From: Gracilariopsis chorda
Taxonomy: Eukaryota; Rhodophyta; Florideophyceae; Gracilariales; Gracilariaceae
NCBI GenBank assembly: GCA_003194525.1
Contig: NBIV01000195.1
Coordinates: forward strand, 1 to 64,000
Length of the DNA: 64,000 nucleotides
Direction: 5' to 3'
How positions within the stretch are numbered: the stretch's first letter is position 1; each line of letters begins with the position of its first letter. This document shows positions 18,501-63,460 of the stretch, piece by piece. The translations under genes were made by a program, and so were the position numbers. Below the pieces are notes generated by a model, which did not search any database, was not told where the DNA came from, and saw only the letters and a program-made list of their open reading frames with translations.

Positions 18501-18539
18501 GCCTAGACTATGTGGAGCCTTAGGGGTTTTGTTTAGGTA

Positions 18540-19330: not shown

Positions 19331-19349
19331 GCGTATGAGCGCCTACATC

Positions 19350-19700: not shown

Positions 19701-19811
19701 CACCTCCCACTTCAGGCTTGGCCAATAGCGCAGTGTCGTAACCTTTTGATACTTTGGGCACTGTTTGCTCGCCTGGGACCTAGGCAAGGCCGAGCTCGTG
19801 TGCAGGTCGCC

Positions 19812-20657: not shown

Positions 20658-20687
20658 CGATTACCAGTTCCTCCTGCTCCAGATCAC

Positions 20688-22036: not shown

Positions 22037-22263
22037 GAAGGAACCCGCATTGCTACAGTCAGTACTCCTCATGCAGGTGCTGGCCCTCTCCCTGAAGATG
22101 TTCCAGGTGAGGGGCCAACTATGATGAGAACACTCGTCGTTGATCCGACTGGCCTGTACTGAGTTGAGTCTCAGGTACCGCTCTTGGTAGAAGAAACCGT
22201 AACCGAAGAGCACGCTGCAGTGACAAGTGCTGCTGCTGCTAGATCAGGGGTGGCTGCAAATGC

Positions 22264-23632: not shown

Positions 23633-23635
23633 GTA

Positions 23636-25963: not shown

Positions 25964-26300
25964 AGTACTTGCTTTTCTGGTTTTGCTTTCTCCACCAATT
26001 TTTTCTTCACACCGCATTTATCAATCCTCTACAGCGGCGCACAGTGCTACCCATGGCCGAAGGCCGCTTCCTCTTGTGTGACTCCTAAACATTCTTATGT
26101 ATCAATTTGAGAGACAGAGTACATTGTAATCAATCTTCATTCAGTTATTGCAATCGTAGCTTTTATCAACACTATGACCGCAGATCACTCAAAAACGTTA
26201 TCTGATACCACCCTCCTGAAATTTGCAATAGTGATTCGCAAACACGCAGCTACAACCAGTAGCCGCGTTTCAGAGTGCATCTTCGGGACAGGAGAGGATC
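25964..26300. other. Helitron 3' flank and junction with element C
   Basis: The first 110 bp parallel the sequence after helicase copy 1 (ttttgctttctccacc, then a ggccgaaggccgc hairpin segment near 26055-26068). The remainder has no recognised LTR for element C, so C appears to lack its 5' LTR and primer site. Confidence 0.5.
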
Positions 26301-34804: not shown

Positions 34805-35286
34805 TGTAGTACAGAGGGTACTATGCGTGCTCCTAAGGATGGGCTTTTACGAAAGATTCCTAACGGAGTATCTGTATTTCCTAACTGTGGCCAAGTAGCA
34901 CACCACTCCAGAGGAATCGTTCCAGCGGAGTGTAATTCGACTAGGTAGAATAACCTATAACCTAGATTTTTATATGGTACAATAGCTAGGTTCGGTCGCG
35001 GTCAACTCGTAGCACTGAAAAAAGTACGCCCCTGGAGCTCCAACTACGGGGAAGTAAACTAAGCACCCTCGAGGCTTGTTCTAGTTCGTCTGTTTCAACC
35101 TCGTGATACACACCTTCAGGTACACTACTACGTCATCCTCTAGGTGTGGTTTCTAAGCCACAGATACCCAGAGCGTCCCATAGCAGCACCTGTAGGATTA
35201 TCGTCCGCCCAGTGAATACGCCCTACGCTTGGTGCTTGCGGATCTCCTTTCAGGAGTCACCTGGTTGCCGCTCCTATGTTAAGGGG
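34805..35286 (+). repeat. Element C probable 3' LTR
   Basis: Starts TGTAGTACAGAGGG after the purine tract. The length to the E insertion point is about 480 bp, close to B's 478-bp LTR. There is no partner copy to confirm it, and the end may lie beyond element E. No gene is present. Confidence 0.5.
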
Positions 35287-35291
35287 ACCAC
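35287..35291. repeat. Element E target-site duplication, left copy
   Basis: ACCAC directly before the left LTR; the same ACCAC follows the right LTR at 42838-42842. Confidence 0.85.
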
Positions 35292-35943
35292 TGTTTGAAT
35301 TAGCTATAATTTATCTTTATTTGAATATAATTGGGTCTAGCATCAGTTCTAACGTGCACAACCCAGCTAGTTTTATTCTACTCGATCTCCTGAAGAGATT
35401 GGTTACCCATTTGCCATGCCAAACTGGCCAAAAAGACGAGTTAACATCTTCGTGAAACCCTGTCAATATGACATTACAACATTTTCATGTTAGAGAAGTC
35501 TTAGTTGACCACGTGGAAATATTGGCTCTATAGTAAACGATGCCTAGTACTCACAACGTTGACAGACACTTCACACGGCACAGCAGGGATTGAACAGTCA
35601 TGGACGATTCCCGAGGGAGTCGTGCCAAGTCATCACTGGCACCGTGGGTCCATGCCAGATCATCAAGAATTTGTCTAATGACAAGTCATCATAATTGATG
35701 GAATTTGCCAAGTCATCAAACGACTAGATCTGACACTGAATCCGGTAAGCCAGTCGCGTACGGCGGCCAGCACGAACACCAAGCACCATACCGTTTAACT
35801 CGGACGAATTCTCATCGACTAGTGGCTCTGATAGAAGTAGACTAGAAACTCTATATAAACATTGATGGAAATTCCGAACTTCTAACTGGGATCATAACCA
35901 TCTACTTCCAACCAACTAAACCACTGCCCCTCTGTTTCTAACA
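35292..35943 (+). repeat. Element E 5' LTR (about 652 bp)
   Basis: Starts TGTTTGAATTAGC, ends TTTCTAACA. It contains a repeated motif of the type aagtcatca (35627-35715), and TATATAAAC at about 35851-35859 as a probable TATA element with transcription start downstream. Confidence 0.9.
35851..35859 (+). promoter_or_regulatory. Element E LTR TATA-like box
   Basis: The TATATAAAC sequence within the 5' LTR, about 85 bp before its end, is conserved in the right LTR near 42747. Its position suits the core promoter of the element. Confidence 0.5.
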
Positions 35944-35944
35944 T

Positions 35945-35958
35945 TGGTAGCATCGCAG
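35945..35958 (+). promoter_or_regulatory. Element E primer-binding site
   Basis: TGGTAGCATCGCAG starts one base after the LTR. Its complement ends GCTACCA, like eukaryotic initiator-methionine tRNAs for the last 7-8 bases, so that tRNA or a relative may be the primer. It differs from the site shared by B and D. Confidence 0.65.
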
Positions 35959-36008
35959 GTAAGTATTGCGCTTACCTGAAACTGGTGACCATCCAGCCTT
36001 GGTGAATT

Positions 36009-36747
36009 TTGCTACACAAAAGTGCCCAAGTTTTGATGAGCCACAGAGATCCAAATCATACTGACGGTTTATTTCTGACCAATTGTGTGCTTCCGGTGAG
36101 CACAATACTCCCATCCAGATTACTGCCGTCCTCGACGTCCGTGTACACCAACACCGACATATCCTTCGAACCACCGTCACCACTGCCGCCACCGCCACCC
36201 GTGAACCTTGCCGACCCTGGAACCTCCGTAGCTGATGGCAGCTTCTCCTTCGAACCCCGTACGCCTTCACCCGAACCAGTCGAAAACCTCATCTCGCTTG
36301 AACCCCGGACGCCTCGTAGTCAACCACCACCTCCCGAGCCAGTTGACATAGCCCCAGAAGCCTCAGACGAAAGTCAACCTGCTTCAATTGTCGACAAACC
36401 TTCAGGAGTCCAAACAGTCGGGGAACCTATTCGTCAAGCGTACGACTCCGCCAAACAGAACTGCAAACTTGTCCTGCCGATCAGTGACGCCGGAAACATC
36501 AACCTCTACCTTGTGGCAAATGATGGTATCCGTCGCCAGAGAAAGCGTACACTTCGTCGTTGGCTTCGTTCACCTAGGTGTGACAACTGCAATTTACGCT
36601 TCAAAAGCCGCGTATAACTTGAGGAACACCTCCACGGAGCCAAACACAAAATACGGTGTTGTCAAAGACTTCACCAACTGGTTGTTTTATTTGCCGTACA
36701 CCGTCGTTCAACAACTGGAAGCATTTCGAGGACCACTGCAGAGGTAA
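36009..36747 (+). pseudogene. Element E ORF1, proline-rich with hydrophobic tail
   Basis: An extra frame between the 5' LTR and gag. The first 140 residues (from 36009) contain repeated SFEPRTPSPEP / SLEPRTPRSQPPPPEP phrases. The natural end seems to be in a second frame (open to 36747) with HFVVGFVHLGVTTAIYASKAA and NWLFYLPYTVVQQLEAF, so a frameshift lies near 36500-36540. No family is recognised. It may be the disordered N-terminal part of Gag or an accessory gene of this lineage. Confidence 0.5.
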
Positions 36748-37321
36748 CAAGCATCGTCTGGCTAAAGAAAAGAAACAAAGGCGTCAACAGAATCACTTCA
36801 ACGGGCGTTTTTAACCCGGTAAACACAGCTCAGCAAAAAAAAATAATTATTGGTCGTTCTACCATTTAAGCTACCGTTTGTGGCTGTTTTCAAGCTCCCA
36901 CTGCGCCAATATTACCAAGCCTTGTCAAGGGAGAAGTAGCTATACAGGTCTTACTATCTTCCCAATCTCTTGACCACTGGTAACCTCAGCTGAAAGAACT
37001 CTACTTTAGCCACTCTGACACGCATCCACGTTCTTACAGCGAAGGGAATTGAACTTTAGGCCTCGAACTTCCGTTTGATTGCCTGAAACCACTTCATCAC
37101 ATCGTAGTGTTTTTTTCTGGCGGAACTATGAAAACTCTGCAATATAATTAACGAGATCCAAATTTTTGGCCTGAAAGTCAGACCCATTTGGCAAGGTTTT
37201 TTGTTTCACTTGATTCCCCGCAATTTCGAGAATTCCAAGCAATACTGCACCCTCACTGCAGTCCCACGCAAACCAGAATATACAGAATCTGGGACGAGCG
37301 CTGGAAGATACAAGTGGTAGA
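36748..37321. other. Element E spacer before gag core
   Basis: About 570 bp without a convincing plus-strand frame; stops are frequent. It could be the decayed join between ORF1 and Gag. Confidence 0.5.
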
Positions 37322-38143
37322 ATGGAAAGACTGGAAAGAGAAGCCGAACTGAAGATCTCATCGCTCGAGTACGCTCTCACCCTCCTCCTGAATTCTGGAG
37401 GCCAATCGTCTTCCGCACCAAAGAACAATAAACCTCCTGTGTTTACTGGAAACCAGAACATTGATAGTTGGGTCACACATGTCCGGAACTATCTGGAAGG
37501 AACCTCAAACGACAAAGCGCTTCCCATAGCGCTCGGTGGAGCAGTTCACCAGTGGTACCTCGCCCAAATGAAAAATGGAACAGAATTCACCATACTGGAC
37601 GAGCAATTTGAAGGTCTGAAGACCCGCTTCAGAATAGTGAACAAGGAAAAACTTGTTCATGATAAACTGAGCAAGTGGGAACAAATGACGGACGTCCACC
37701 ACTACAATAAGGATTTTCTGAAGATCATACTGGATATTCCCAATATCAGTATGGAAGAAAAGATAGACAGATACACAAAAGGACTAAAAAGCTTTATTTG
37801 GAACGAGCTTTGTACCAAGAAATACAACTCTGTCACAGACGCGATGAATGATGCGGAAAGAGTGGAGTCAGCGTACAAAACAGGGGGTTCCAGCAGATTT
37901 AGCAGAGGAGCAGGCGGCCACTGGCATAACAATGGAAACTGGAAACGTGAAGTTAGAGAAGCTTATCACAGAAACCAGAGAACACTGCCGCAAGAATGGA
38001 CTTTGTTTTCGTTGCAGAGAACCAAAGCACAGAGCGAAAGACCCGCGCTGCCCAAAAAACTCTCAGAGGAACTGACTCAAATTTCGTCAGTTTCAGTTGA
38101 AATCACTGTACCCACAGAAACAATCAAGATCTACAAAACTTAA
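37322..38143 (+). pseudogene. gag: Element E gag
   Basis: 273 codons with a retrotransposon Gag core: PPVFTGNQNIDSWVTHVRNYL, ALGGAVHQWYLAQ, FEGLKTRFRIVNKEK, LDIPNISMEEKIDRYTKGLK. The nucleocapsid zinc knuckle is coded in the +1-shifted frame at about 37980-38040 (LCFRCREPKHRAKDPRC, Cys-x2-Cys-x4-His-x5-Cys), so a frameshift occurred near 37900-37970. A short Arg/Gly-rich stretch precedes it. It is not functional as it stands. Confidence 0.85.
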
Positions 38144-38641
38144 GTCAAGGTAGAAGAACGCACGGAACACCAGAGTGCGAATACCAAACTAGACCACAAG
38201 AAATATAGACATTTAACGTCAAACGTTGCATCACCATTTGAAACTCCATCTCCAGGACTGTTACTTGCGCAAGTACGCGTAAATGGGAAAATCTGTAAAG
38301 TGTTGTTTGATAATGGATCCGAAATCAGCTACCTTTCAAAGTCTTTCGTTAAACGCGTGCCAATTCCAACAGTTAAAACGAACTACCAAGCAGAGATGGC
38401 GAACGGATCAACTACAGTTTTAGAAGAGACTGGTAAAGATGGTGTCACACTGGAAATAGGACACCTCAAAGAGAAGAGACGGTCCGCCATCTGCCTATTG
38501 TACGGATATGACGAAATCCTTGGAAAAACGGGCTCCCCCAGTACAACCCCTATGTCAACCACCGAACTAACGTCATATCATTTCCCCACGAAAATAAAAA
38601 AGTTGTCATTAAGGCTAAATGGAAACGAAACAACAACATGA
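38144..38641 (+). pseudogene. Element E protease region
   Basis: VLFDNGSEISYLSKSFV in the frame starting at 38300 corresponds to the retroviral-type protease active site, but the expected D-S/T-G reads DNG, so catalysis is probably lost. The downstream segment ends at 38641, and the join to RT is broken by stops between 38641 and 38847. Confidence 0.7.
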
Positions 38642-38846
38642 AAACAATCAAAACTATCAAGACATTCATACAGAAGAAGATACTAGTATTTGTTGTTCTT
38701 GTACGTCCAAAAAATGAAGCAGAAGATACAGAGGTACAAAAACCCAACCTAAAGTAATTGTTAAGTGAATTTGAAGATGTAATTCTAGTCCAACGTCCGA
38801 GAAAGAACGACCCCTAAAGCGAGAACAAGACTTTCATATCGACCCA

Positions 38847-40108
38847 ATGCCAGGTTTTTCGCCGCTCACGAAAGCAGTATATCGAATGTCAGATAAAGAA
38901 ATTACAGAACTACGTAAGCAGCTCGATAAAATTCTTCAACAGGGTTTCAACCGACCAAGTTTAAGGCCTTGGGGTGCACCCGTACTATTCGTCGCCAAGA
39001 AAGATGAGGCATTGAGACTATTAATTGACTACCGATGATGAAACAAACTAACGATGAGGAATAGTTACCCCATACCCCAGATTGATGACATATTTGGTCA
39101 GGTAAGTGGCACTAGAACAATTTCAAAAATAGATCTTCGTTCAGGGTATGATCAAGTAAGACTTTCCGAACAGACAATCCCGAGAACAGCCTTCCGTACA
39201 AGATACGGTCACTTTGAGTTCCTCGTACTTGCTTTTGGTCCTACCAATGCACCAGCTTCTTTTATGAGCCTGATGGATACGTTACTGAGAGAATACATAG
39301 ACGTGTTCGTCTTAGTATATCTAGATGACATTCGTATTTAGAGTAAGAACAAAGAAGAACATTTGAAGCATCTCAGATGTGTACTCAACAAACTTTGCGA
39401 GCACAAGCTTTATGGGAAGCTTTCAAAGTGTGAAGCAGAAATTTGAGTATCTCGGACACATTGTGAGTGCAGAACGTATATCCGTCGAGGCGCAGAAGGC
39501 TGACGCAATCTTGAATTGGAGTATACCTAAAACCAAGAGCGACGTCCAGGCATTTTTGGGATTAGTAAACTACTACCGGAAGGTTTATCGAAAATGGTTC
39601 CAACATATCGAAACCCTTGAACAAACTATGCGGAAAATCTGAATTTGAATGGAAAAAAGAACATGCTGAAAGTTTCGATTCCTTGAAGAAAGCTATTACG
39701 AGAACCCCAGTACTAAGGCACTTTTACCCAAACCTACCCATCATCGTTATCATCGTTACTACAGACGCTTCTCAATATGCCATTGGATCCGTTATGGAAC
39801 AGGTTGAAAACAATGTTAAACGACCTGTAGCATTTTCATCAAGAACATTGAACGCCGCCGAAGAACGTTACGCAGCCCACGAAAGAGAACTCTTGGGGTT
39901 AATAGACACGTTGAGGACATGAAGAGTGTACCTTCATGGCCAAAAAGTTACAGTTTACACTGACCAATACCCTTTGACGTATCTAGAATCTCAACCGAAC
40001 CTGTCTCAAAGACAGTTACGCTGGCTGCGAAACATCGTTGAGTTTGACTTCTGTTTTCAGCTGATCAAAGGGACGTCCAACGTTGTCGCTGATGCTCTTT
40101 CAAGATAA
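38847..40108 (+). pseudogene. Element E reverse transcriptase and RNase H
   Basis: RT: RPWGAPVLFVAKKDEALRLL, then two adjacent TGA codons at 39036-39041, SKIDLRSGYDQVRL (catalytic Asp), FGPTNAPASFMSLM and YLDD intact in VFVLVYLDDIRI, followed by a TAG at 39339-39341. FEYLGHIVSA and NYYRKVYRKW mark the thumb and connection. RNase H: TTDASQYAIGSVM, AERYAAHERELLGL, a TGA at 39920-39922, then TDQYPLTYLESQ and ADALSR. The order is normal; at least four stops and two frameshifts. Confidence 0.88.
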
Positions 40109-41640
40109 CCGAAACAAGTTGAGAATCGTGAAGTAATTAACTGGTCACTACTTCAGGAAGCAATTAATAGAACCTCCAAAGTCAACGGTATGTCCCAGCT
40201 TGGTGAAGTATGCAAAAAGGATGCGCGCGCATTCATCAACAGATATATGAATGACAAGGAATTCAGAAACCTATAAAAATCTCCACAGGGCCCATTCTAC
40301 AAACAAAAAGGATTTTTGTATAGGGAAGGACGACGCTGCGTACCAAAAGGAGAAGTACGACTAAAAATACCACAAGACTACCACGATCAACCTACATCAT
40401 CTCACCTAGCATTTAAGAAAACATATGAATATATTTGGATACTATAATACTGGAAATTATTACGCCAAACGATTAAGGAATTCGTCTACTCATGTCTGAA
40501 GTGTCAAGAAACGAAATCAGGAACCAACAAACCTCAGGTTGGACTACAACCACTAACTCCTCCGAGAAACAAGTGGGCCCAAATTACAATGGACTTCATC
40601 ACACCGCTTCCCAAAACGAAACATGGGAATAGTGCATTGTACGTAGTAGTAGACCGCCTATCCACGTTGATCGGAATTATCCCAACAACATTATATTTCA
40701 CTGCAGTCCAGACTGTAGAATTCTATTTCAAACACGTATACAGACATCATGGCCTCTCCAAAGTACTTATCTCTGACAGGGACAAGACGTTTATAAGCAA
40801 CTTTTGGAAAGAACTATTCCGTCTTGTCGGTACTAAGATAAGGACATCAACAGCATATCACCCACAGACAGAAGGTCAAACCGAGGTAATGAACAAAAAA
40901 ATTGAAGAAATGATCAGAGCATACGTCAACCTTAAGCCATCTAATTGCGATGAACACCTCATAGAATTTGTAGTCGCATACAACCCGTCAGAGAACTCAA
41001 CCACAAAGTTTACACCCTTCTTCTTAACGTATGGGGAGCACCCAAGAGTACGACTGCTCGACACCATCATTTCAGAAAGTTATACACCTCTGAAGTTCAT
41101 ACAAACCATGAAGCAAGTAACAACTGAAGCAAGAACACATATTGAAAAACAGAACCGTTACTCCAAGTCACACACCGATAAGAATCGGTCCACCTGCACG
41201 TTCCAATCGGGACAGAAAATCATGTTGTGCACAAAAAACCTCAATGCAGACCACATGGGAAAGAAGTCCAAACTACGAATCCAATACTGTGGACCGTTCA
41301 GGATCACAGAAAAACTTGGTCCAGTAACATTTCCTCTAAACTTGAGTGATAAAATGAAGTCAAAAATTCATGATGTGTTCCCGGCTAGTGTTCTCAAGCC
41401 TTACCGAGAAGACAAATCAACTCGTCTCGAGCCACATCATCCCACCCCAGCAACACTGAAGGATGGGACAGAAGAATATGAAGTAGAATGTATTGTCAAC
41501 CACAGAAAACGGGCCCGATGATTTGAGTTTCTTGTCAAATGGCTCGGATACCCAAGTCATGAGAACAATTGGATGAAAGAAAGAGACCTCACGAACTGCA
41601 AAGCACTTTTCTGGCAGTATAAGAAGACGAACGAACTCCT
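40109..41640 (+). pseudogene. Element E integrase and chromodomain
   Basis: The zinc region is degraded (CLKCQETKSG near 40495-40520 survives). Core in the long frame 40589-41521: TMDFITPLPKTKHGN (first Asp), LISDRDKTFISNFW (second Asp), HPQTEGQTEVMNK (Glu). The GPF motif is RIQYCGPFRITEKLG. The chromodomain is split by a TGA at 41519-41521: EYEVECIVNHRKRAR before it and FEFLVKWLGYPSHENNW after it. Apart from that stop, the integrase core frame is open for 310 codons. Confidence 0.88.
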
Positions 41641-42186
41641 ACCGAGAAGGAACTTAGCACCCCCGTCTCATCAAACCTTGAAAATGAATCAGAACACCAA
41701 TGTCGAAGACGCGAGAGAGTTTTACAACAATATCAACCTCGGCAGAAGATCGTTACACCACTGGGTGGGTGAAATCACTGGCATTGAAGCAATCAGGCTA
41801 CGTCTTTGCTGGGCAGCCTGTCATATCTCGTTCTCATTCGCCTAACACCGTGGAACCTTCTACACCCAGGAGAATGACATACTGCTGCACCAACTCTTCT
41901 TCAAATATGATAGTGGAGTTCCAACGATTTGGCTTTGGACGATACGTTCGAAATGCATGTCTTCTACTATAAGGTCGCGCGTTACGGACACCTCTCGTGT
42001 GAACGAAGTTTTACGGAGAAAACTGGTTCAATCCTGAACCGCTTCGGAGATGAAGGTCAAGTCCCATTCACCTTGGAATCTGAAACTCAGCGCGACCTGT
42101 TCCCCGTTCCTCCCGAATCTGGGTTTGTGCGAGTCTAAGAATATGTTTGTCACGGGTCGGGTCGACTCTACTGTTCAGGGGACCAC
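41641..42186 (+). other. Element E 3' non-coding region
   Basis: Short frames only, none recognised. It ends in caggggaccac, the likely polypurine tract, directly before the 3' LTR at 42187. Confidence 0.5.
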
Positions 42187-42837
42187 TGTTGGAATTAGCT
42201 ATAATTTATCTTTATTTGAATATAATTGGGTCTAGCATCAGTTCTAACGTGCACAACCCAGCTAGTTTTATTCTACTCGATCTCCTGAAGAGATTGGTTA
42301 CCCATTTTCCATGCCAAACTGGCCAAAAAGACGAGTTAACATCTTCGTGACACCCTGTCAATATGACATTACAACATTTTCATGTTAGAGAAGTCTTAGT
42401 TGACCACGTGGAAATATTGGCTCTATAGTAAACGATGCCTAGTACTCACAACGTTGACAGACACTTCACACGGTACAGCAGGGATCGAACAGTCATGGAC
42501 GATTCCCGAGGGAGTCGTGCCAAGTCATCACTGGCACCGTGGGTCCATGCCAGATCATCAAGAATTTGTCTAATGACAAGTCATCATAATTGATGGAATT
42601 TGCCAAGTCATCAAACGACTAGATCTGACACTGAATCCGGTAAGCCAGTCTCGTACGGAGGCCAGCACGAACACCAAGCATCATACCGTTTAACTCGGAC
42701 GAATTCTCATCGACTAGTGGCTCTGATAGAAGTAGACTAGAAACTCTATATAAACATTGATGGAAATTCCGAACTTCTAACTCGGATCATCACCATTGAC
42801 TTCCAACCAGTTCAACCACTGCACCCTGTTCCTAACA
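42187..42837 (+). repeat. Element E 3' LTR (about 651 bp)
   Basis: Starts TGTTGGAATTAGC, ends TTCCTAACA; nearly identical to 35292-35943, differing at scattered bases mostly in the last 100 bp. Followed by the ACCAC duplication. Confidence 0.9.
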
Positions 42838-46918: not shown

Positions 46919-46923
46919 CCTTT
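46919..46923. repeat. Element D target-site duplication, left copy
   Basis: CCTTT before the left LTR; CCTTT again at 58139-58143. Confidence 0.92.
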
Positions 46924-47756
46924 TGTGGTGCAATGCCCCAAAGGCGAAAAACACCGAAAGACGTCTGGGATCTTTCTCTCACGAGGTGAACCCAGTTGGG
47001 TAGAGCCCTCCCGGAGGTGTCACGGCGAAGCCAGTTTGTAAGACCAGTGACACCTGTCGCGACTTGCGCAGGGGGGTGAAGGCGAAGAATCGGTATCCAC
47101 GTGAGCGGGGTGTGATCCTCAGTAGAGGTATGTTTCCACGTAAGTGGGGAAGTGTGATCGGTTGCGCACAGGAGGGGCCGTGGGTAGCGGGATGTACTAC
47201 CCTGAAAGGGGGAAAGGAGGAGAGTGAAGGGAAAGGAGGAAGAGTGGGCGAGGGTGAGTCGCGAGAGCGACGAACGAATACGGCAATGCCGGTGGACAGG
47301 AATCCCTATACAGGGCGAAACACCAATGTTATTGGAACAATTATATTCCCAAGGATGGGCCTCTTTAGATGTGCAAGGGGGTTAGATGTCCCGTGGTTTA
47401 CGGCGTTTCCCTCCAAGGAGGAGTAGAGCACGCGCGCAAGCGGTAACAACTAGAGCCAATTCCCCAGGTTGGGGTCCCTTGTTGGGGAAGGTTTACTGGT
47501 GCAACGGCATTGCGCCGTAGCAATAAGTACTAGCTTCCCAGAAATGGGTGTGAAAATAATAAATAAAATCAACTAAAATACTCCACATGTCGTGGCAACA
47601 TCCACTACTGCGGCCAACCGCCAATTGACCCAAAACCGTGTCCCACGTGTCCATACCCACCATTGTGGGGCGTAGTTCATATACACACTACACAACCGAT
47701 AATATCGGGAAAGCGATCAAGTACCAGGAATCCCTCCCTAAGGGCGTTGCACTTCA
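46924..47756 (-). repeat. Element D 3' LTR (left copy, 833 bp)
   Basis: Plus strand TGTGGTGCAATGCC...GTTGCACTTCA. Same length as the right copy with roughly 3-4% difference. The plus strand toward 47750 leads directly into the antisense gene, so an antisense promoter inside this LTR is plausible. Confidence 0.94.
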
Positions 47757-47766
47757 TATCCCCCCC
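47757..47766 (-). promoter_or_regulatory. Element D polypurine tract
   Basis: The minus strand reads GGGGGGGATA directly before the 3' LTR. Confidence 0.75.
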
Positions 47767-47812
47767 ATAAGACGGGAAAACGACAGCGGACGCGGAGGAT
47801 TCCCAGACGAAA

Positions 47813-49597
47813 ATGGGTGATAAAAGCGCGTGCTCTGTCTCCGGTTCTCTGGTAAATCCCTCTGCACCAGAGTCATCGAGCGCACAAACAACAACAACAG
47901 CCACCCTCGAAAACGGAGAAATGAACAACGACAACAACATCAACAACAACAGCCAACCTCCGAGGCCTCTCGGGCGCTACACCACCGGTTTCCGGTCAGT
48001 TCCCCTGCCTCAGGGCGATCGACATCCGGTACAACCGGGGAATATAGCTGCTACAGCCGATCATCCCTTCGCACTACCACGTTCGGTGGGGTCCTCCGGA
48101 ACCGCTCCGGCGTTCAACTGGCCAACCTACAACACCCTGGTGGGGCTCAACACGATGAATTGGAATCACGCGTCGCGCCTGCGCCTTGCCCCGTGGTTTC
48201 ACCCGGTCGCTGTCCTCAATGAGGGATTGGTCACCGCTTATGCGGATGGCTCAGACACCCTTCCGGGGGATCTGCCCAGAGCAGTCACCACATCGTGGGA
48301 TTGGCGTCACCGGATTGCGATTCCGCGTCACCACCTCCGAAGGAGTTCAGGCGAGACCGTCGCTGCGGCGCAGACCGCGTTGACGCGCATGGCATACCAA
48401 CGGCAGAACCGGGCTCCATTCGATATACCGGTCCCACCGGAGTTCGGCTTCGACATTAGCCACTTCTGCACTCGCGGGGAGATTGGGTACGGCAACAACC
48501 TGTTCCACTTCGAGACCCTCGCTTGGAGGAATTTCCCCGCAGCGCGGCAAGAAGCCCTTTCTTGGGAGCGACCGATTATTCGGGCGGAGTTCAGGTATCT
48601 TCCCCGGGAATACCGGTCCAACTTTCTCCAAAACTTCATCCGCTATGAGCGGCGTTGGCGATCCCGATTCGGGTATTTCATCTCGTATCAGAACGTGGAG
48701 ATAGAGCGGATCGCGCCGCCTCACCGACTAGGTCGGTATGTAGCACTCCCCGAGTGGTGGCGCTTCCATGAGGCCTGCCGAGGGTGCTCCATAGAACTCC
48801 CGCCGGTACTTATGTACCTCGGTTCGCTGCTCATGCAGGATCCCTGGTCGGGGTCGTGGTCCGTAGTGGTTACGGAGTGGGCGGCCCGCGCTGCGGCTTA
48901 TATCCTCAACGAGGCGTATGACCAGTTTCGTCTCTGGTTCCTCCCACCGCGTGTGCGGGCAGCGATCCGCAATTTGGATCTTCGCATCCACCTTGGAGGC
49001 CAGGCCGACAATGAAGAGGTCCTCCAATTACTTGGGTACATCGACAGCGTTAGCTGGAGTGAGGTGCCGCTGGAGCAAAGCGGTCGTCTAGATGGCGGCA
49101 GCAGTAACACCGGTGGTCCGGGACTCGGTAGAAACACCGCCCTTGCGGGGGATTTTATCTACTTCGACCCCTGGGAGTTCCAGGAAATTTCCTCGGAGGA
49201 GGCGCGCGAGCTTCGCGATGCGCCCCGGCATGTGCCGGAAGACCACCCTGTGGGGTACGTCGATTCCGACGACTACTACCGCGCATACGGCGGGGATGAC
49301 CCAATGGTCAATAACGAACCGGAAGAACCCGGGGAGATGGACGTAGAGGAAACCGGCGCTAGCGCGGAAGCTTTCCCAGAGGGGGTATCTCCGGCCGAGC
49401 CGGCTGCTGACCCCTCGGCGGCAAGTGCCGGACCTTCTATCCCCAGCGGGGTGACGGCGAATGAAAACGAGATCATCGCACGTTTTCTCCGGGGTGCCGG
49501 TCTGAGCGCTGCCGAGGTATCGGGGGATGTCACCACCATGGCGGACGCGTTGGCCTACCGCCTCGCTGGTGGTTACGCCCCGTCCGACGGCGAATAG
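47813..49597 (+). CDS. Element D antisense accessory protein (aORF), 594 aa
   Basis: An uninterrupted 594-codon frame opposite to gag-pol, starting 57 bp inside the 3' LTR. Residues 1-50 are a Ser/Thr/Asn-rich tail. A conserved body (about 95-400) holds APWFHP (WFHP 128-131), WDWRHRIAIP, RPIIRAEFRYLPREYRSNF, WRSRFGYFISYQNVEIERI, TEWAARAAAYILNEAYDQF and AAIRNLDLRIHLGG; then FIYFDPWEF and HPVGYVDSDDYYRA, an acidic region (NNEPEEPGEMDVEE) and a C-terminal helix (IIARFLRGAGLSAAEV). The matching blocks in A occur in the same order at roughly 40-50% identity by eye. It has no known domain, no signal peptide and no membrane span. It remains open although gag-pol around it has stops, which suggests late loss or separate selection. 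The function is unknown. Confidence 0.85.
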   Translation: MGDKSACSVSGSLVNPSAPESSSAQTTTTATLENGEMNNDNNINNNSQPPRPLGRYTTGFRSVPLPQGDRHPVQPGNIAATADHPFALPRSVGSSGTAPAFNWPTYNTLVGLNTMNWNHASRLRLAPWFHPVAVLNEGLVTAYADGSDTLPGDLPRAVTTSWDWRHRIAIPRHHLRRSSGETVAAAQTALTRMAYQRQNRAPFDIPVPPEFGFDISHFCTRGEIGYGNNLFHFETLAWRNFPAARQEALSWERPIIRAEFRYLPREYRSNFLQNFIRYERRWRSRFGYFISYQNVEIERIAPPHRLGRYVALPEWWRFHEACRGCSIELPPVLMYLGSLLMQDPWSGSWSVVVTEWAARAAAYILNEAYDQFRLWFLPPRVRAAIRNLDLRIHLGGQADNEEVLQLLGYIDSVSWSEVPLEQSGRLDGGSSNTGGPGLGRNTALAGDFIYFDPWEFQEISSEEARELRDAPRHVPEDHPVGYVDSDDYYRAYGGDDPMVNNEPEEPGEMDVEETGASAEAFPEGVSPAEPAADPSAASAGPSIPSGVTANENEIIARFLRGAGLSAAEVSGDVTTMADALAYRLAGGYAPSDGE

Positions 49598-49875
49598 TGA
49601 GACCCTTTTGTCCAGTTTCCTGGTGTTACTTCCCTGGCTATGGCAGTTAGTGTAGTGTAGTATGGAGCTTGCTGCTCCACTAGGTACAATTTCCCGTCTC
49701 GGACGGTGATTTCCAATTAGAATTCCCCGTCTTGGACAGACTTTCCCTTGCTATCCCTTTCTACTGCCCTCCGCTCGCGCGGCAACGTTACCCGACTTGG
49801 GCATTAACCAGCGTGGCTGGGGCTGCAGTTCCCGTTTGACGGTGGTATCGCACGACCTGCGATCGTGGGAGGTGT
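49598..49875. other. Element D spacer between antisense gene and chromodomain
   Basis: About 280 bp where the two converging genes end. No frame is supported; it may contain both transcript ends. Confidence 0.5.
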
Positions 49876-50208
49876 TCAATTGGCTCCCACGTCCCCACTG
49901 GGGTCATACCTGTACCAGCGGACGCGGTATTGTAGAATACCATCCTGGTACCAGGTGTGTACGACAAGTCCGTATACTACGAACTCTCGTTCGTAGACCT
50001 GCTGGCCGTGCCGGGTGGTGGTTGTAATCCCTTTTGAGGGTTGCCCGCGGTGCGGTATAATGACCCTTAGCAGGGTGTTCGGCGATAACTCCGGCGTTGC
50101 CGTGCACTGTGGTAGCGGCCACTGCTCGTGCGGGAGGATATCCCTCAAGAGGGTGTGTGGCGTCATGGATTTCACCGCCAAGTCATTCCCCATTAGGGCA
50201 GGGTCGTT
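49876..50208 (-). pseudogene. Element D chromodomain segment
   Basis: Open frame directly after the Pol stop at 50209-50211 and in the same register, five codons before the ATG at 50193. The end reads EREFVVYGLVVHTWYQDG, then LQYRVRWYRYDPSGD, a chromodomain; the sequence then shifts frame, the expected TWEPIEHLPRS being readable one base over, near 49890. In element B this domain is fused to integrase, so here a stop and a frameshift have removed it. Confidence 0.8.
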
Positions 50209-52707
50209 TCAACTTTCGCGGTATTGCGGGCGAACCACTAGTCGGCGGGGGACTTGGGCTCCGCCTTCGCGGTTGAGCTCACGAACCGCGAGTTTGCGGG
50301 AAGACGACCGCTCCTGTGGAATTGGCGTTTCCACGATCCCCTGGGGGGTCCCGTGTGACACGGTGATTGGATGGCAAACCGCCTCCCTGCCAGGCGCACG
50401 AGCGCTCTGCACCATACGTTCCGGCGATGCCGTTGTGTTCCTGGCTACTGACGGGTTGCCTGGGGCTAACTCTGGTACACCGGTATTTCGGTCAAAATTC
50501 CCCTTTGGGGGGTGCCGTGCAGGTGCCGATGACACCCTTTTCAGGGGCTTGGCCGCTAAGTGCGGTGCACGGTCTCCACGCAGGGGAGCAGCGTCCGGTA
50601 TGACCGGTTTCGAGCGTGCCATGGCGCGCGCTTTTTCCGAGTTCCTCGGTTCTTTCCCGAAGCGTTGCGGAAGTTGGCGCAAATTATTCCCTGGAACGGG
50701 GGCTTCGATTCCGTCGACGACCGGAGGCGTTTCCAGCGCTTGCGCACCAGTAGTCCGTATGTTACGTGTTTCCCGTTGTGACGGCGATATCGTTCCTCGA
50801 AAACGAGTGTTCTCCTCCCCCTCCTTAGACGGAGCGGCGGGATAAGGGATAACATTCCCCGCCTGGCGGGTATAAATTCGCGCCAGGGGGGCGGGCGTGG
50901 TAGGGGCGGGCGCTGAGAGTCCCGAATTACCCGGCTGAGCCGGTGAGTCTGACAGGGTCGGTAGGTCTGAGAATCCTCGGCTGGGGTGTGGTAGTACCGT
51001 AGGCCTAGTACTCCCGGATGATTCCGGTGTTGCAGAGTCCGTAGAAACGGGGTTGCCTGGGTCCAGGACTACCTCTGACGAGGAAGGAGGAGGAGCAAGG
51101 AAAACACGATCACGGGAAATCCGTTCGTGCGTGTCGCCCATCTCTACCACGACAGTGTCGGTGTTTACAGAGATGACCTTGAATGGTCCATCCGCCACAG
51201 GCGAGAGTTTATGGCGCTTCTCCTGTTCCGGGTTGTAGTACTCATTCCTGATGAAGACGTAGTTATTCGCCCGAATCGGGGACGGTTTCCCTCGCAAGCG
51301 AGCATCAAAATCCCGCTTGTAAGCGGCTTGGGCCCGTGCCATAGACGTCCGCGCAGCGAGGACCAGCTTGGAAAGCCATTGCTTCCATTGCTGCCGGTAG
51401 ATACCCAGTGATGGGAGATTGTCCAAGGTGGCTTGGGGTTCCAGCGCCACAGGCGGGGGTGTTCTAGATAGAACCAACTCAAATGGCGAAACTCCGGTAG
51501 TCCGGTGTACCTGCGTGTTGTACGCGTAGGTTACCGCATCACCGTACATGTCACAGTTCTTTGGGTGGTCTGCGACGTAGGAACGTAACGCCGCGAGTAA
51601 CGTCCGGTTAAACCGTTCAACTTGCCCATTACACTGGGGGTGGTAGGTAGTCGTGAACAAGTTCTTGACATCCAGGATGCGACAAACATCCTGGAAGAAC
51701 TTGCTCGCGAACTGTTTCCCGTTATCGGAGAGCAGCTCCACAGGGGGACCGTAGACGAAAATCCAGTGCGTCACCAGAGCCTGGGCAACCGTGAGAGCGG
51801 TTATCCTCCGAAGAGGGACAGTCCGTACCAGCTTAGAAAAGCGGTCGGTAATGACAAGTAGAAACTTGTTTCCACGTTTCGTGGTGAGTAGTGGTCCGAG
51901 AATATCGATCGCGGTAAACTCGAGCGGCGCCCTTGCAGGGAATATTTTCATCTTCTTCGCATTTTTGCGGAGCTTGACGCGATTCTTCGCGCATTCGCTA
52001 CAAAACCGCACGGTTGCGTAGCAATCCACCGCCATGGCGGGCCAATAGAAATCCCTTCGCAGGGTTAGGTAGAGTTTCCTCCCACCTGGGTGACCTCCAA
52101 TGGGGGCGTAGTGTGATAGATGTAACACCCGCGACTGCAGGGAATGAGGTACCACAATCTGTGGGCGGGCTTCGACCTTCCTTACGAGGTAGCCTTTGTC
52201 GTTTACCCCGAAAGGGAGATCTTCACCACCGTTGATACGGGCACGAACCCTCGTACAGAATGGGTCGCCGAATTGTTCTCGGATCATTTCTTCCGGTGAT
52301 ACCGGTACAAAGTTTCTCGGTACCGGGTTCTCAGATTCATCTGGCGATGCGAGTAGCTCGTCAAAGTCAGCATCCTTGTCCCAGTTTTCTGGCCCAGCCT
52401 CGACGGCACATTCCGGATCATCCGGGTCTATGGCCATGAAACATGGGACTTCATCATCCTCCGTTGGGAGTGCTTCCCCGCTTGTGGGTAACCGCGACAA
52501 AGCGTCGGCCTGGGTGTTCTGCGCGCCCTTTTTATAAATGACTTGAAAGTCATATTCCGCGAGGCGGAGTCTCCAGCGCATGAAGCGTCCCGACGGGTCG
52601 GAGATATTCATTAACCACCTCAATGAGGAATGATCCGTGTACACGGTGAAATGAACCCCATAAGGTAGGGGCGCAGAGTGGTCATCGCCCATACGACGGC
52701 GAGGCAC
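50209..52707 (-). pseudogene. pol: Element D Pol: RNase H end, integrase
   Basis: 832 codons. Starts in RNase H (VHFTVYTDHSSLRWLMNI, TQADALSRL), with the preceding part in another frame (52620-53687), so a frameshift lies near 52690. The integrase zinc region is HLSHYAPIGGHPGG and CSECAKNR. Core: TAIDILGPLLTTKRGN, ELLSDNGKQFASKFF, CNGQVERFNRT, the complete D,D,E triad. GPF motif PVADGPFKVISVN. The remaining 280 residues are a long Pro/Ser/Arg-rich tail without a domain, ending in TGA at 50209-50211. The integrase itself looks undamaged. Confidence 0.92.
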
Positions 52708-53777
52708 TCTTTCTCCGATACGGAGTAGTTCCGCTCATGAACATTGAGCGACCGCGACCAATAACCAATTGGGTGTCGTTCCCCCTCGGGGGTGGTTTGA
52801 AAAAGAGCACACCCGACTTGGTACTCGCTCGAGTCCGTATCTACGGAGTATGGCAACCCAAGTTTTGGGAGATGTAGGATTGGTGCTGATGTGACAGCCT
52901 CCTTCCAGGAGTTAAAGGCTTCCGTTTGCTCAGGCGTAAATGTTCCCAGTTTTGGGGGGTTCCCCTTTCGCAACAACGCATTCAGGGGCGGCGCGGTATC
53001 CGAAAAGTTCGGGATAAACCATCGATAGACGTTGAATAGCCCCAAAAGGGAGCGCATTTCCGTTTGAGTACGGGGCTCTTTCGCCTCAACGAGGGATTTG
53101 ACTCGAGATTTCTCGATCGCTAACCGTCCAGGACGGATAATGTGAACCAGGTACTTCACAGTATCTGTAAAAAACTCGCATTTCCTCAACTTGAGGGTAA
53201 TTCCGGCATCGCGGAGTACGGTCAGCACGTCTCGGACGTGAGTGAGATGGTCCTCCAACGAGTTGGAGAAGATGATAATATCATCAAGGTAGACCAGACA
53301 ACTCCGCCACTTAAAGCGGTTGAGTAGAATATCTTCTGCACGCTGAAAGGTGGCGGGGGCGTTGGTTAACCCAAATGGCAATCGCTTGAAGCGGTAAGTT
53401 CCTGCGTGGCAAGTGAATATGGTTTTGTCGCGATCCTCCTGTCTGACAGGTACTTGCCAATATCCCCAATTGGCATCGAGAGCCGTGAAAACGGTGGCGT
53501 CTCCGAGGGAGTCAATACACTCGTCCATACGAGGGATAGGGTACGTGTCCCTAACAGTCATGGCATTGAGCCGGCGGTAGTCGACACAGAACCTCCAGGC
53601 TACGTCGGGCTTCAAAGCCAGTACAACTGGGGATGCCCAGGGTGATTGAGCGGGCTTAATCACACCTGCGCGGAGCATCTTGTCCACTTGGGACTGCTCC
53701 TCTTCCCGAGCTTTCGGACCTGCCCTGTAAGGGGGTTGTGCAACCGGTCGCGCACCGGGGAATAAATCGATCCTGTG
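52620..53777 (-). pseudogene. Element D Pol: reverse transcriptase and RNase H start
   Basis: The RT core is complete: WRFCVDYRRLNAMTVRDTYP, FTALDANWGYWQVPV (catalytic Asp), LPFGLTNAPATFQRA, CLVYLDDIIIFS (YLDD), KYLVHIIRPG. RNase H begins VDTDSSEYQVGCALF and SEKECLAVVWAM. The frame is lost after TTLRPYL near 52690. Upstream it is separated from the protease part by a single TAA at 53778-53780 in the phrase ISAT-stop-HRIDL, where B has ATKHRIDL, so one lysine codon has become a stop. Confidence 0.92.
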
Positions 53778-55007
53778 TTACGTTGCACTAATCTCGCCAA
53801 GCGAGCCATCCCACATTGTGGTGAATTCCCGTAACATTGTACGGAGTTTGTTGCGGTGCGACTCTGGCACATGGCTGAAGACCAGCGCTTCAAGTGCCTT
53901 TTCCGGATCAATCCGGTCGTTGCTCGATGGAGCATTGTCCTGTGGAACAGGTGTGGTTCGCATTTCCGAGTTACTCGGTATGTTCGACGCTGAAGTAGCG
54001 GTTTCCTCCCCCTCCTTAGACTTGACGTCTTCGGACGGCGGGGCGAACTCCTCAGAAGAGGTGGTAACTCCGAGTACATCGGCGGCTGTCATCTTCGTTG
54101 GCAGCAGTCCCATACGATGGGGGGTTACACTCCCAATTACTTGGTGTTTTACCAGATACTGGGGGTGTTTGCCAAGGTTGGCAACCAATATCCGGAAAGG
54201 AACATCTGGGGAAATGGAGACAATTCCATTAGCCAGCGTCAGCTGGGATTTCTCGTACAACGAGGCGAGGGGTTGTATAACCCGAAGACCGTGTTGACGG
54301 GAATTTACCTGCACCCAGACTTGGGACTCAGGTGGTATAGAAACCGAGGCAGCGACGCGGAGCTTGGTGGACTCGCGGGACGCGGGCAGTGGTTCCTGCG
54401 CAGCAGGGAGCGGAACTCGTTTCCGAGAGGACCGCTTTAGTGGGCGGCGAACAATCGGAACCGACGATCCATCGTCAAGTTCTACACGCCTGAGGCGGGG
54501 CCTGATTGCGTCGACAAATCTGTCGCAGTAATCACATCCCAGTATCACTGGTGCTGCCAATGAACGGCAAACGCTGAAGTCCAACTTCACCACAGAGGTA
54601 CCAAGTCTCACGACGAGTTCCACTGTGCCCACTGTTTGTAACGGGTTATTGTTTGCATCCGAAATGTCGGGGACCGCGTCAGAGCGGATACGAGACAGCA
54701 CAAGCGGGGGTAACAATGATTCCACAACAACGTTGGGGCCTGAACCTGTATCCAGGACGGTGAGAAACCTAACCATAAACTGGGGATCAAGGCCAAGGTC
54801 GGCATAGACCTTGTAATTGCGCTTGGCCAAGACCAAGACTCTACCGGGAATCCGGGGATTTTTACTCCGTACCCACGGGCAACGCAACACACTGAGGTGC
54901 GCAGAGTCCGCGTCAGCGGTGTCTTTTCTCGAGAGAATTTTCACCGGGGAGCGAGGCGAGGACGCCTCGGGCGTCAACAGCCTCTTTTCTGAGGACGCCT
55001 CTCCCAA
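53778..55007 (-). pseudogene. Element D Pol: protease part
   Basis: 409 codons with the retroviral-type protease active site TVLDTGSGPNVVVESLLPP (Asp-Thr-Gly) and the following flap-side region ILGCDYCDRFVDAIRPRLRR, matching B's order. Downstream segments TLANGIVSISPDVPFRILVANLG and MWDGSLGEIS correspond to the B linker leading into RT. Its register relative to gag is -1, as in B. The ATG at 55007 is a frame boundary rather than a likely start, because the frame is open upstream into the end of gag. Confidence 0.9.
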
Positions 55008-55024
55008 AGGGGAGACTCCCTCAG

Positions 55025-57199
55025 TTAGTTTGCCGCCTTCGGCGGTGGGTTGGGTTCCTCGACAACGAGTGCTTCATCCCGTTGACGGGGGTTTCTATCC
55101 GCATAAGCGGGGGTTGCAACAGATGGTTGCGTGATCCCCCGAATCGGGGTGTATGAAGCTTGCCGCGCACGCGGGGTCTGTGGTAGGGCATGGGAAAGGT
55201 CCGTTTTAGCACGGAGGTAGGAAGCCGTAGGGACGGAACGTTTCTCCTCTGGAGTGAGTGCCTCGTAGTTTGCCACCACCTTGGCCATATCCTTCAGTGA
55301 GCAGATACACTGAGGCGAGGTATGGCCATGGGCATAACAAAGGTGGCAAATGAGAGCCAACACCGCGACACGCGGGTTATTATTCCGAGTATCGGAAAAG
55401 CGAACCACAGGGCGGGTGTCAGTCCATCCAGGCCGTTGATAACGGGAATGACCGTTTGAAAACGGGAGTGGTTGGGGTTGGACCCGACCGTTACCACTGT
55501 ATAGAACGGGATCTTCTGTTCCCGTATCACGGGTCATCTCCGTCGTTGAAGGTAAATCGGTGGTTGGAATCGACACACCATCCCCCTGCAGTAAATGCAT
55601 GTTATCAAATCCCTGTCCAGGGTTCCCATCCACAGTGAGCGGGAGTGAGGAAGCTTCGCTTTCCAGCAAAAACGCCTTGGCGGATTTAGACCGATTGTTC
55701 GGAGTTCTTGCACGAAGTGCATCCCCTTCCCCTCGAGCGTGTTGGACCAGCTCGAGATAGGTGATCCTCCGCTTTTCCTCCCGATAACGGGTAACTAAAC
55801 TCCGGATTGCCAGGTGAAGACCATCGATGAACATGGTACTGCGCTCCCCAGCGGGGTATACGTTACCACATCTGTGGAAAGCCTTGTTAAGGCGCACCGA
55901 GTAATCGGTCTCAGTCTCTCCAGCACGCTGGCGTGTATCTCGCAAAGCGAGGATAGCCTGGTGAATAGCGGTGTTCGTGGCGTAGGAACGCAGAATATAC
56001 TGCACAGCCTCCGGCCAGCAAGTAACCCCTCCCTCGGAGGCACGAGAAGATCCTCTGACAGAGTTGTATTGGTCCTCCGCCACTCCCCGTAAGAAATACG
56101 GTAAAGCCAAATAGGCTTGTCCCTCATTCATACCGAGGATATCGGCCTCCGCTACAAAGCGGGATAAGAAATCCAGTACCAGGACTGGGTCCTCTCCAGT
56201 AAAATACTGGTTGCGGAGCGAGAGCTGCATTCGCTTAAAGCATTCTCGCACCTTTCCCGTACCACGGGGCGTACGTCCAAGTGACGAATCTTCGAGCCGT
56301 TAGTACCGGTATGATAAAAGCTTCCGGTAATCCGGGTTTGTCGGTTTCAATTCCCGGAGACCGGGGTGTCTTCTCCCCTTCTGGCGGGTTCGGATCACAC
56401 CTTTAGTGGCCGATGACCGCATCGAGCGGGAGGAGTAGCCTCGCTTCTCGTCCTCCGAGTCGGAGTCCGAGGAGCTCGAGCTAACCGAATGGTTTCGGGA
56501 TGAGTCCGACGATGTCGAAGAATCAGAGTCCGAATATTTTCGGTGGTGTTTCCGTCGATGACGGCGTTTCTTCTTCCCAGCAAGCTGGTCGTTGTGCGAT
56601 GCCTCGTTTACTGGATCATTCGGGGATGGTTTGTCCATGAGGACGAACTGCTCCAGCGTCTCCAGGCGGGCACCAATCCGATCAAATTGGGCTTCAACTC
56701 CTTCGATGAAGGTGGCGGGTTGTCCCAAACTGTCCAACACGGAGTTGACGTTATACCGTAAAATACGGAGTTCCTTGACAACCTCCTTTACGGGAGTTGC
56801 CAAGACCACCTCTTGGAGGGACTTTAGTTTTCCTACAAGGGTGTCATGGGCAGTCCACAGAGCGCGGGCCTGGGATTCCAGGGAGGTCCCCTGGGGGGTG
56901 TTATCGCCCGTTCCACGGGGGCTTGAAGCCGCGACAGTGGGAGCAGGCTGGGGTGCCTGGGGCACTGCGGCAACAGGCGGAGTCGATGCTGCATTCCCCT
57001 GCGGGGGTGATAACGAGGGCAAAAGGAGGTTCCGGGGTTCCCGGGCGGGGTTATCATTCCGCAATGAAGCGGCACCAGCACGGCTGGAACTTGTCCGTAT
57101 ATGGATACGGGGTACGAACCGAACTTCAGACGTGTCCGCGTTGTCGCGGGAGCGACTACGCGTAACCACTGGCTCCGCATCGGAGGGATTTCTCGACAT
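55025..57199 (-). pseudogene. gag: Element D gag with one in-frame stop
   Basis: Two blocks in one register: 56300-57199 (299 codons, disordered, with a basic KKKRRHRRKHHRK stretch and a Ser/Asp-rich run) and 55025-56251 (Gag core), separated by a TAA at 56300-56302 and 16 further codons. Core motifs: RMQLSLRNQYFTGEDPVLVLD, LALPYFLRGVAEDQY, AVQYILRSYATNTAI, RQRAGETETDYSV. The zinc knuckle CHLCYAHGHTSPQC is a standard Cys-x2-Cys-x4-His-x4-Cys, unlike B. The last codons are GCG GCA AAC TAA. One nonsense change would separate it from an open gag. Confidence 0.9.
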
Positions 57200-57282: not shown

Positions 57283-57302
57283 GATTCTAGGTCGGGAGAC
57301 CA
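57283..57302 (-). promoter_or_regulatory. Element D primer-binding site
   Basis: gattctaggtcgggagacca on the plus strand, three bases from the 5' LTR; the same 20 nt as at element B. Confidence 0.9.
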
Positions 57303-57305
57303 CTT

Positions 57306-58138
57306 TGTGGTGCAATGCCCCAGAGGGGAAAAACACCGAAAGACGTCCGGGATCTTCCTCTCACGAAGTGAACCCAGTTGGGTAGAGCCCTCCCGGAGGT
57401 GTCACGGCGAAGCCAGTTTGTAAGACCAGTGACACCTGTCGCGACTTGCGCAGGGAGGTGAAGGCGAAGAATCGGTATCCGCGTGAGCGGAGTGTGATCA
57501 TCAGTAGAGGTATGTTTCCACGTAAGTGAGGAAGTGTGAGCGGGTGCACACAGGAGGGGCCGTGGGTAGCGGGATGTACTACCCTGAAAGGGGGAAAGGA
57601 GGAGAGTGAAGGAAAAGGAGGAAGAGTGGGCGAGGGTGAGTCGCGAGAGCGACGAACGAATACGGCAATGCCGGTGGACAGGAATCCCTATACAGGGCGA
57701 AACACCAATGTTATTGGAACAATTATATTCCCAAGGATGGGCCTCTTTAGATGTGCAAGGGGGTTAGATGTCCCGTGGTTTACGGCGTTTCCCTCCAAGG
57801 TGGAGTAGAGCACGCGCGCAAGCGGTAACAACTAGAGCCAATTCCCCAGGTTGGAGTCCCTTGTTGGGGAAGGTTTACTGGTGCGACGGCAGTGTGCCCT
57901 CGCACTAAGTACTAGCTTCCCAGAAATGGGTGTGAAAATAATAAATAAAATCAACTAAAATACTCCACATTTCGTGGCAGCATCCACTACTGTGGCCAAC
58001 CGCCAATTGACCCCAAAACGTGTCCCACGTGTCCATACCCACCATTGTGGGGCGTAGTTCATATACACACTACACAACCGATAATATCGGGAAAACGATC
58101 AAGTACCAGGAATCCCTCCCTGAGGGCGTTGCACTTCA
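57306..58138 (-). repeat. Element D 5' LTR (right copy, 833 bp)
   Basis: Same length and ends as 46924-47756. Differences include clusters such as gtgatcggttgcgc against gtgagcgggtgcac. Confidence 0.94.
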
Positions 58139-58143
58139 CCTTT

Positions 58144-62684: not shown

Positions 62685-63460
62685 TGCTCCATGCACCAAA
62701 AGATATTCGGGATATTTTCTCGTTAGAGGTGAGCCCAGTTGGGTAGAGCCCTCCCAGGAGTGGAAAGACTATGTCGGGTTGTAAGGCCGAGGCCAGCCGT
62801 CGCGAATTGCGCAGGGAGGCTAAGGAAAGAATCTGGTATCCGCAGGAGCGGTGTGTGGGGGTGGTCGTCCTCTAGAGAGGTGAGGTTTCCACGTTAGTGG
62901 AACTCGCGAACACGAGCTGTGGGTAGCGGGAAAGCCACCCTGTAACGGGAAAAGAAAGGGGGAGCTGAGTCACGAGTGCCGTGACGAAGACTAACGGAAG
63001 TGCCAGTAAATAAATATTATACACGGCGAACACCAAGACAGTTGGAATAACAATCCGAATACTCGGGTCCTTTAAATAGGCGAGGGGGTTAGACTTTCCG
63101 TATGCTACGGTGCTTCCCTCCAAGGAGGAGTAGAGAACACACGAAGGCGGTGAGGTCTATAGCCAATTCCCCAGGTGGGGTCCCTTGCTGGGGAAGGTTT
63201 ACTGGTGGGACGGCAACTCGCCGGCGCACTAAGTACCAACCATCCCAGAAATGGGTATAAAAATAATCAATAAAATTAACGAAATTACTCCACTTTGGTG
63301 GTTCATGCCCACTATTGTGACCAACCACCAAGTAACTCTTCCCCGTCCCACGTGTCATATCCACTATTAGTGGTCGTAGTTCATGCAATGACTACATTAC
63401 CGAAACCTACGGGAAATCAACCAAGTTCCAAGAATCACTCCCTGAGGGCATTGCACTTCA
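62685..63460 (-). repeat. Solo LTR related to element D
   Basis: Diverged copy of D's LTR: gagcccagttgggtagagcc, gtcgcgaattgcgcaggg, ggttagac...gtgcttccctccaaggaggag, attccccaggtggggtcccttgctggggaagg, and the same end attgcacttca at 63460. It has no internal region, so it is a solo LTR left by recombination. The left edge is approximate and no target duplication is found. It splits the Copia-like element. Confidence 0.8.

Follow-up and report, generated by a model that had tools for sequence, protein, structure and literature searches.

What is a long, uninterrupted reading frame doing on the wrong strand of a retrotransposon whose own genes are broken? The question is posed by element D, a complete but broken Ty3/gypsy element in a 64,000-nucleotide stretch of the red alga Gracilariopsis chorda (contig NBIV01000195.1, positions 1 to 64,000; hereafter the window). 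The gag-pol region of D lies on the minus strand in several frames, where Pfam recognizes reverse transcriptase, RNase H, and integrase. On the plus strand, between pol and the 3' LTR, sits an antisense ORF (aORF). An earlier reading of the bare sequence, here called the original prediction, had located a 594-codon frame opposite gag-pol and near the 3' LTR, and this holds to the base, with the ATG 56 bp from the LTR. The same reading ranked the frame as the best candidate in the window for an undescribed system, a view that is not supported, since antisense aORFs beside the 3' LTR are a described class (available portions of PMC7264820 and PMC11963269). Our analysis establishes the aORF as a conserved, protein-coding gene that runs antisense to gag-pol and is kept under purifying selection while the elements multiply. 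The features on which the analysis draws are collected in Table 1.

Table 1. Features of elements A to D in the window (strand given where assigned)
Feature	Position	Strand	Details and basis
D aORF	47813-49597	+	594 codons, ATG to TAG, no internal stops
D 3' LTR (relative to gag-pol)	46924-47756		Putative origin of the antisense transcript; LTR alignment, ends by eye
D 5' LTR	57306-58138		LTR alignment, ends by eye
CCTTT target-site duplication, left	46919-46923		
CCTTT target-site duplication, right	58139-58143		
D candidate polypurine tract	47757-47769	-	Minus-strand TATGGGGGGGATA preceding the aORF start; putative, by inspection
D candidate primer-binding site	57285-57302	-	TGGTCTCCCGACC..., adjoining the 5' LTR; by inspection
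D chromodomain-like end of pol	49788-49995	-	In two frames; recognized by eye
D pol fragment, RNase H end and integrase	50209-52707	-	Pfam and ORF translations
D pol fragment, reverse transcriptase and RNase H	52620-53687	-	Pfam
D gag/protease region	53778-57199	-	Three separate frames; assigned by position, no Pfam gag or protease match
A aORF	3669-5509	-	Body spans 3669-5291; frameshifted near 5290; ATG of the family near 5509
A 3' LTR	5560-6472		Ends read by motif
A pol, 3' part	424-3332	+	Three frames, integrase-like to chromodomain-like, convergent with the aORF; by eye and alignment
B aORF remnant	7275-7835	+	3' end of a 738-codon frame; deletion junction near 7373-7384
B 3' LTR	6758-7235		Identical to 15305-15782; TATATAA at 7135-7141
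B gag and pol	8661-15199	-	gag 13025-15199; pol with chromodomain 8661-12923; uninterrupted
C, third LTR element	35274-42837	+	gag-like and integrase-like frames; LTRs 97% identical

The two LTRs of D begin and end with TG...CA by inspection and align at 46922-47756 and 57304-58138 with 96.5% identity (29 mismatches in 835 positions). The aORF and pol meet tail to tail, and their coding regions do not overlap. In position, in its orientation antisense to gag-pol, and in being conserved like the other element proteins, the D frame agrees with the definition of an aORF-3R. When 64-kb windows were simulated 20 times from local dinucleotide frequencies, their longest runs without a stop spanned 243-376 codons, compared with 594 in D. 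The window copy is a damaged representative, its pol being broken while open pol frames reaching 1,875 codons and more occur among 74 listed pol places. Between the aORF and the searched pol piece (window 49597-50926), the window copy has 1332 bp, compared with 1664-1830 bp in 20 other matched pairs, so that ~350 bp has probably been lost there. Separately, stretches at 62716-63236 are 72-82% like the D LTR and probably represent a related LTR near the end of the window.

We asked how the D aORF fares across the genome, using the 74 best-scored places among 1,909 candidates rather than all copies. At these places, which share 90-100% identity, 62 of the 74 frames contain no stop. The original prediction had stressed that the frame is open despite a ruined gag-pol; open it is, but this is not remarkable, as an equally long pol piece is stop-free at 60 of 74 listed places (stops in 14, compared with 12 for the aORF), and the D aORF therefore decays no faster than pol. 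The two genes converge in 21/21 matched aORF/pol pairs; the other 53 of the 74 aORF places have no partner in the 74-place pol list. Likewise, pol faces the aORF in one copy each of elements A, B (the remnant), E, F, and C50.

Selection on the encoded protein is evident from substitution patterns. By the Nei-Gojobori method, dN/dS is 0.33 for the D aORF in frame (18 of the 74 places, the best-scoring ones, a choice that favors intact frames) and 0.49 for the element A aORF (30 of 80 places), well away from the value near 1 that the original prediction had named as contrary evidence. Four of the five other D frames give about 1.1-1.7 (1.06-1.65). The -1 frame has a ratio of 0.43, yet carries 18.8 stops per copy; its low ratio arises because its third positions coincide with those of the aORF. 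Within the same 8 D copies, the ratio is 0.34 for the aORF against 0.68 for the pol tail; a corresponding attempt on the element A pol tail found no open frame. Changes common to at least two D copies comprise 43 nonsynonymous and 49 synonymous substitutions, where the observed mutation spectrum predicts 2.36 nonsynonymous per synonymous (binomial P = 2e-6). Private changes lie nearer to neutrality, with 93 nonsynonymous and 59 synonymous outside the window copy (P = 0.01) and 21 and 14 in the window copy itself (P = 0.13), all of these P values being rough because related copies are not independent. This is the pattern of a mobile-element gene, constrained during multiplication and relaxed in each dead copy.

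The gene is not confined to D. The original prediction had matched D to a 540-amino-acid antisense protein of element A, and the homology is borne out: the two proteins are 41% identical over 448 aligned positions with the same order of blocks. The length is another matter, since the GTG-started 540-residue frame in the window is a frameshifted copy of a 613-residue gene; 21 of 30 fetched A copies carry a 643-codon open frame, from whose first ATG 613 residues are read. The LTRs of A and D are, as had been noted, very different, sharing one significant 29-bp match (E = 2e-5) and three shorter nonsignificant ones. The prediction had further counted absence of the frame from other elements as evidence against it, and many further elements proved to carry one. 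Beyond D and A, relatives occur in four element types, E, F, B, and C50, of which B and C50 are only distantly similar. Searching with the protein BWQ96_03215 (P0004) retrieved six places of the E type at 93-100% identity and six of the F type, five at 61-65% and one at 71%; residues 1-491 of the query are 100% identical to contig C30. BWQ96_03215 and FGB62_50g12 of Gracilaria domingensis share 47-49% identity with D across 73-96% of its length, and both carry the name hypothetical protein, with no mention of an antisense element gene. Outside the G. chorda genome, the searches brought up this G. domingensis protein together with two entries that bear the tag "lgn" (probably Logan). Two side observations concern the copies themselves. 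An E-type copy has ~1.45 kb between pol and the aORF, including a 126-codon minus-strand frame. Some of the A and D copies sit no more than 10 kb from a contig end (e.g., contigs C36, C261, and C78), mostly in one orientation, which is most simply explained by assembly breaks inside elements.

The B type forms a more distant branch. Its 738-codon protein has as relatives a protein on contig C50 and an outside protein, P0009 (674 residues; 35% identity over 86%). A second database entry, P0010, fuses a bacterial DnaA start (PF00308) to a near-identical P0009 on a 6,041-base ENA contig and is probably a chimeric assembly. BLASTP links the B type to the D family at E = 3e-6 (24% identity over 129 positions), and profile-profile comparison does so with a probability of 95.3% and E = 2e-8 over 289 columns, an E-value that is rough because few sequences enter the profiles (effective numbers of about 1.9 and 1.6). 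From 11 fetched loci, only L054, L055, L057, L061, and L062 were aligned, the rest being broken or redundant, and L062 was dropped before folding; L068 was left out of 7 further fetched loci. Of the analyses that the original prediction had proposed, the profile search joined the D and B types, but structure prediction was uninformative, as two AlphaFold2 models have low confidence (mean pLDDT 30.2 with pTM 0.18, and mean pLDDT 40.6 with pTM 0.42).

How the gene is expressed can be judged in part from its position. With LTR edges placed by eye, the ATG lies 56 bp from the LTR in D and about 47-50 bp from it in A, E, and F, a gap into which a promoter would hardly fit; transcription probably starts within the LTR, and D is probably read from the LTR inward, as originally proposed. 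This argument does not cover B, for which candidate ATGs of the long copy lie 331-613 bp from the LTR edge; there, either the promoter may be internal to the element or the transcript may have a longer leader. Neither strand contains TATAWAW in the 900 bp preceding the aORF of D, A, and E or in the 632 bp preceding that of the long B copy (short of a whole LTR). In D, E, and A, an AT-rich block is present 256-312 bp upstream, and the TATATAA of the B LTR is a TATA-like word readable on both strands.

The original prediction knew of no family with this sequence, and no described family matched here: searches of Pfam, NCBIfam, PHROGs, and PDB sequences yielded nothing convincing. Matches to DUF6220 (E = 0.12) and to a cytochrome P450 chain (E = 0.075) were rejected as weak. 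Searches of phage records with tblastn returned no relatives, and none of the 90 and 7 pattern stretches retrieved from IMG/VR was confirmed as one. Pfam scans detected neither a bZIP domain nor domain evidence of nucleic acid binding. Basic, nuclear-signal-like motifs occur at the C termini of three B-type proteins (PRKRQR, PKRAR, and PARKRPR), whose tails look coiled-coil by eye; a pattern scan found no such motif in the D, E, and F proteins and one KRTR in A.

From these features we propose, as a reading with about an even chance of being correct, that the aORF encodes an accessory protein made from an LTR-started antisense transcript and acting in trans, in the nucleus, on element expression or host silencing. 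Transcription would be driven from within the 3' LTR, or perhaps from just inside it in B, and would run inward, presumably ending between the two convergent genes. Translation would yield a soluble protein of ~590-675 residues (738 codons for the B open frame), consisting of a core rich in tryptophan and arginine, a linker rich in proline and acidic residues, and a predicted helical tail. Both the site and the target of action are presumed, a basic, nuclear-signal-like tail being confined to the B-type relatives. The suggested mode resembles what has been proposed for plant TRP28 antisense proteins and is known for HBZ of HTLV, to which no kinship was detected.

A natural deletion in element B bears directly on this proposal. 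Among 27 close full-length matches to the B remnant (window copy included), 16 carry a 192-codon frame, 10 the 738-codon frame, and 1 a 172-codon frame. The window copy is ~1.93 kb shorter than the copy on contig C69, the junction falling within a short repeat. Four fetched 192-codon copies align to it without gaps across that junction, three of them letter for letter over 40 bases, yet have different flanks. The deleted form has therefore moved, and the aORF is not needed in cis. Its product could be provided in trans, or the gene could be dispensable or could even hold the element back. Such spread is what a trans-acting product would permit, and it also fits a dispensable or a restraining gene. 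The last of these has its own rationale: if the protein, or its transcript too, limits copy number by lowering transposition of its own family, copies that lose it should expand, and the predominance of 192-codon copies, the junction shared by four of them at different sites, and the identical LTRs of the window B copy are all as such a model would have them. A gene that restrains its carrier would be less readily expected to show purifying selection and to persist in two integrase groups, and we regard self-restraint as an unlikely alternative to a trans-acting accessory protein.

Could the aORF instead encode a structural or particle protein, such as a second Gag-like or an Env-like product made from a separate antisense message? 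The env gene of retroviruses occupies the same place in the element, and the size and long conserved core of the aORF protein would suit such a role. The strand is opposite to that of env, and the maximum 19-residue hydropathy of seven aORF proteins is 1.06-1.52, so no membrane span is expected; an env-like sense ORF was rejected on these two grounds. A gag origin was likewise set aside after the D profile matched the sole gag tried, that of element B, with a probability of 0.17%, which is no match. Spread of the deleted B form also speaks against a structural protein, though one could be supplied in trans as well. Together, these points make a particle component improbable.

Capture of a host gene by retrotransposons, once or repeatedly, we hold to be no more probable than a structural role. 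It would account for the lack of detectable likeness to gag or pol domains and for the hypothetical genes listed in two annotated genomes. No host paralogue came to light at the places inspected, namely 21 of the 74 D places and a single copy each of A, E, F, and C50, all of which lie beside pol. Furthermore, the grouping of the distant B and D types mirrors that of their integrases and speaks for a single ancient acquisition. Over 142 ungapped columns, the integrases of A, D, and F are 72-80% identical and those of B and C50 73%, compared with 42-59% between these groups. The aORF proteins split into the same two groups (by pairwise identities, with no tree built), and the gene is thus probably as old as the common ancestor of both. 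The aORF changes faster than integrase: between A and D, identity is 80% in the integrase core but falls to 41% in the aORF. The gene is not general, as the 646 bp between the integrase-like frame and the 3' LTR of element C contain no ORF of at least 100 residues; the element C integrase is 29-38% identical to all others over the same columns. Elsewhere in the window, a cluster of long inverted repeats at 15843-26004 (up to 692 nt at 94%) probably reflects nested or inverted element copies.

A more ambitious form of the trans-acting proposal is possible but doubtful: the aORFs would constitute a superfamily older than the split of the two red-algal chromovirus-type groups, encoding a diffusible, LTR-read anti-silencing or transcription factor that parasitic deletion derivatives share in trans and that arose independently of TRP28 and HBZ. 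Very improbable is a role mainly as antisense RNA, with double-stranded RNA damping gag-pol and the open frame incidental: convergent genes would overlap in transcription if either read through, and such a role is raised for plants in the available text of the review PMC7264820, but in D the coding regions are separate, and the low dN/dS in D and A, the scarcity of stops, and protein conservation across families and species amount to a codon-level constraint that nearly excludes RNA as the sole function.

According to the available portions of PMC7264820, Grande, RIRE2, Retand, PvRetro13, and the fungal element Boty all carry an additional ORF in antisense between pol and the 3' LTR; the same source places the Grande protein in the nucleus and its transcription under a promoter upstream of gene23. 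The aORFs of Grande (gene23), RIRE2, PvRetro13, and Boty thus equal the D aORF in position and orientation, as far as that source describes them. According to the available parts of PMC11963269, all Retand clusters of one survey carry antisense ORFs, 97% of them with TRP28 (PF04195), whose function is unknown and for which those parts report no homologue outside elements. Retand elements are described there as non-chromovirus elements of flowering plants with 2.9-6.6 kb between pol and the 3' LTR; in contrast, the red-algal elements end pol in a chromodomain (by Pfam in B, by eye in A, D, E, and F), and the corresponding region spans ~2.0-2.5 kb in D and more in E. PF04195 was not listed at E-values up to 1 for the aORFs of D, A, E, B, and C50 or for two outside relatives; a whole-genome search for TRP28 gave no match, but neither did its controls, so that this search carries no weight. 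Our protein database searches, which reach relatives sharing short exact words and do not amount to a direct comparison with Grande, RIRE2, PvRetro13, or Boty, returned no entry with a plant or fungal name.

The HBZ protein of HTLV is read antisense from the 3' LTR inward and acts as a trans-acting regulator. The red-algal aORF shares with HBZ and APH-2 the antisense orientation and, probably, the inward reading from the 3' LTR, while trans regulation is for the aORF a model. It differs from HBZ in having no detected bZIP or other Pfam domain, in its length of ~600-700 residues, and in belonging to a retrotransposon with no detected env. HBZ and APH-2 are also named in the accessible sections of PMC11963269. 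The literature that we searched, with subscription journals mostly outside it, contains no report of such an antisense gene in red algae. Novelty therefore lies in the protein family and the host group and, to the extent that the literature was examined, in the chromovirus setting; the layout was already described.

In plants, the retention of a wrong-strand gene by some Ty3/gypsy elements still calls for an explanation. Another protein family at the same site, with no kinship to the plant one detected, in red algae and in chromovirus-type elements, would, if true, point to repeated use of the 3' LTR-adjacent site for accessory genes. The long and deleted forms of element B provide a natural comparison, within one genome, for the role of the gene, and some hypothetical proteins of Gracilariales would be relabeled as element genes.
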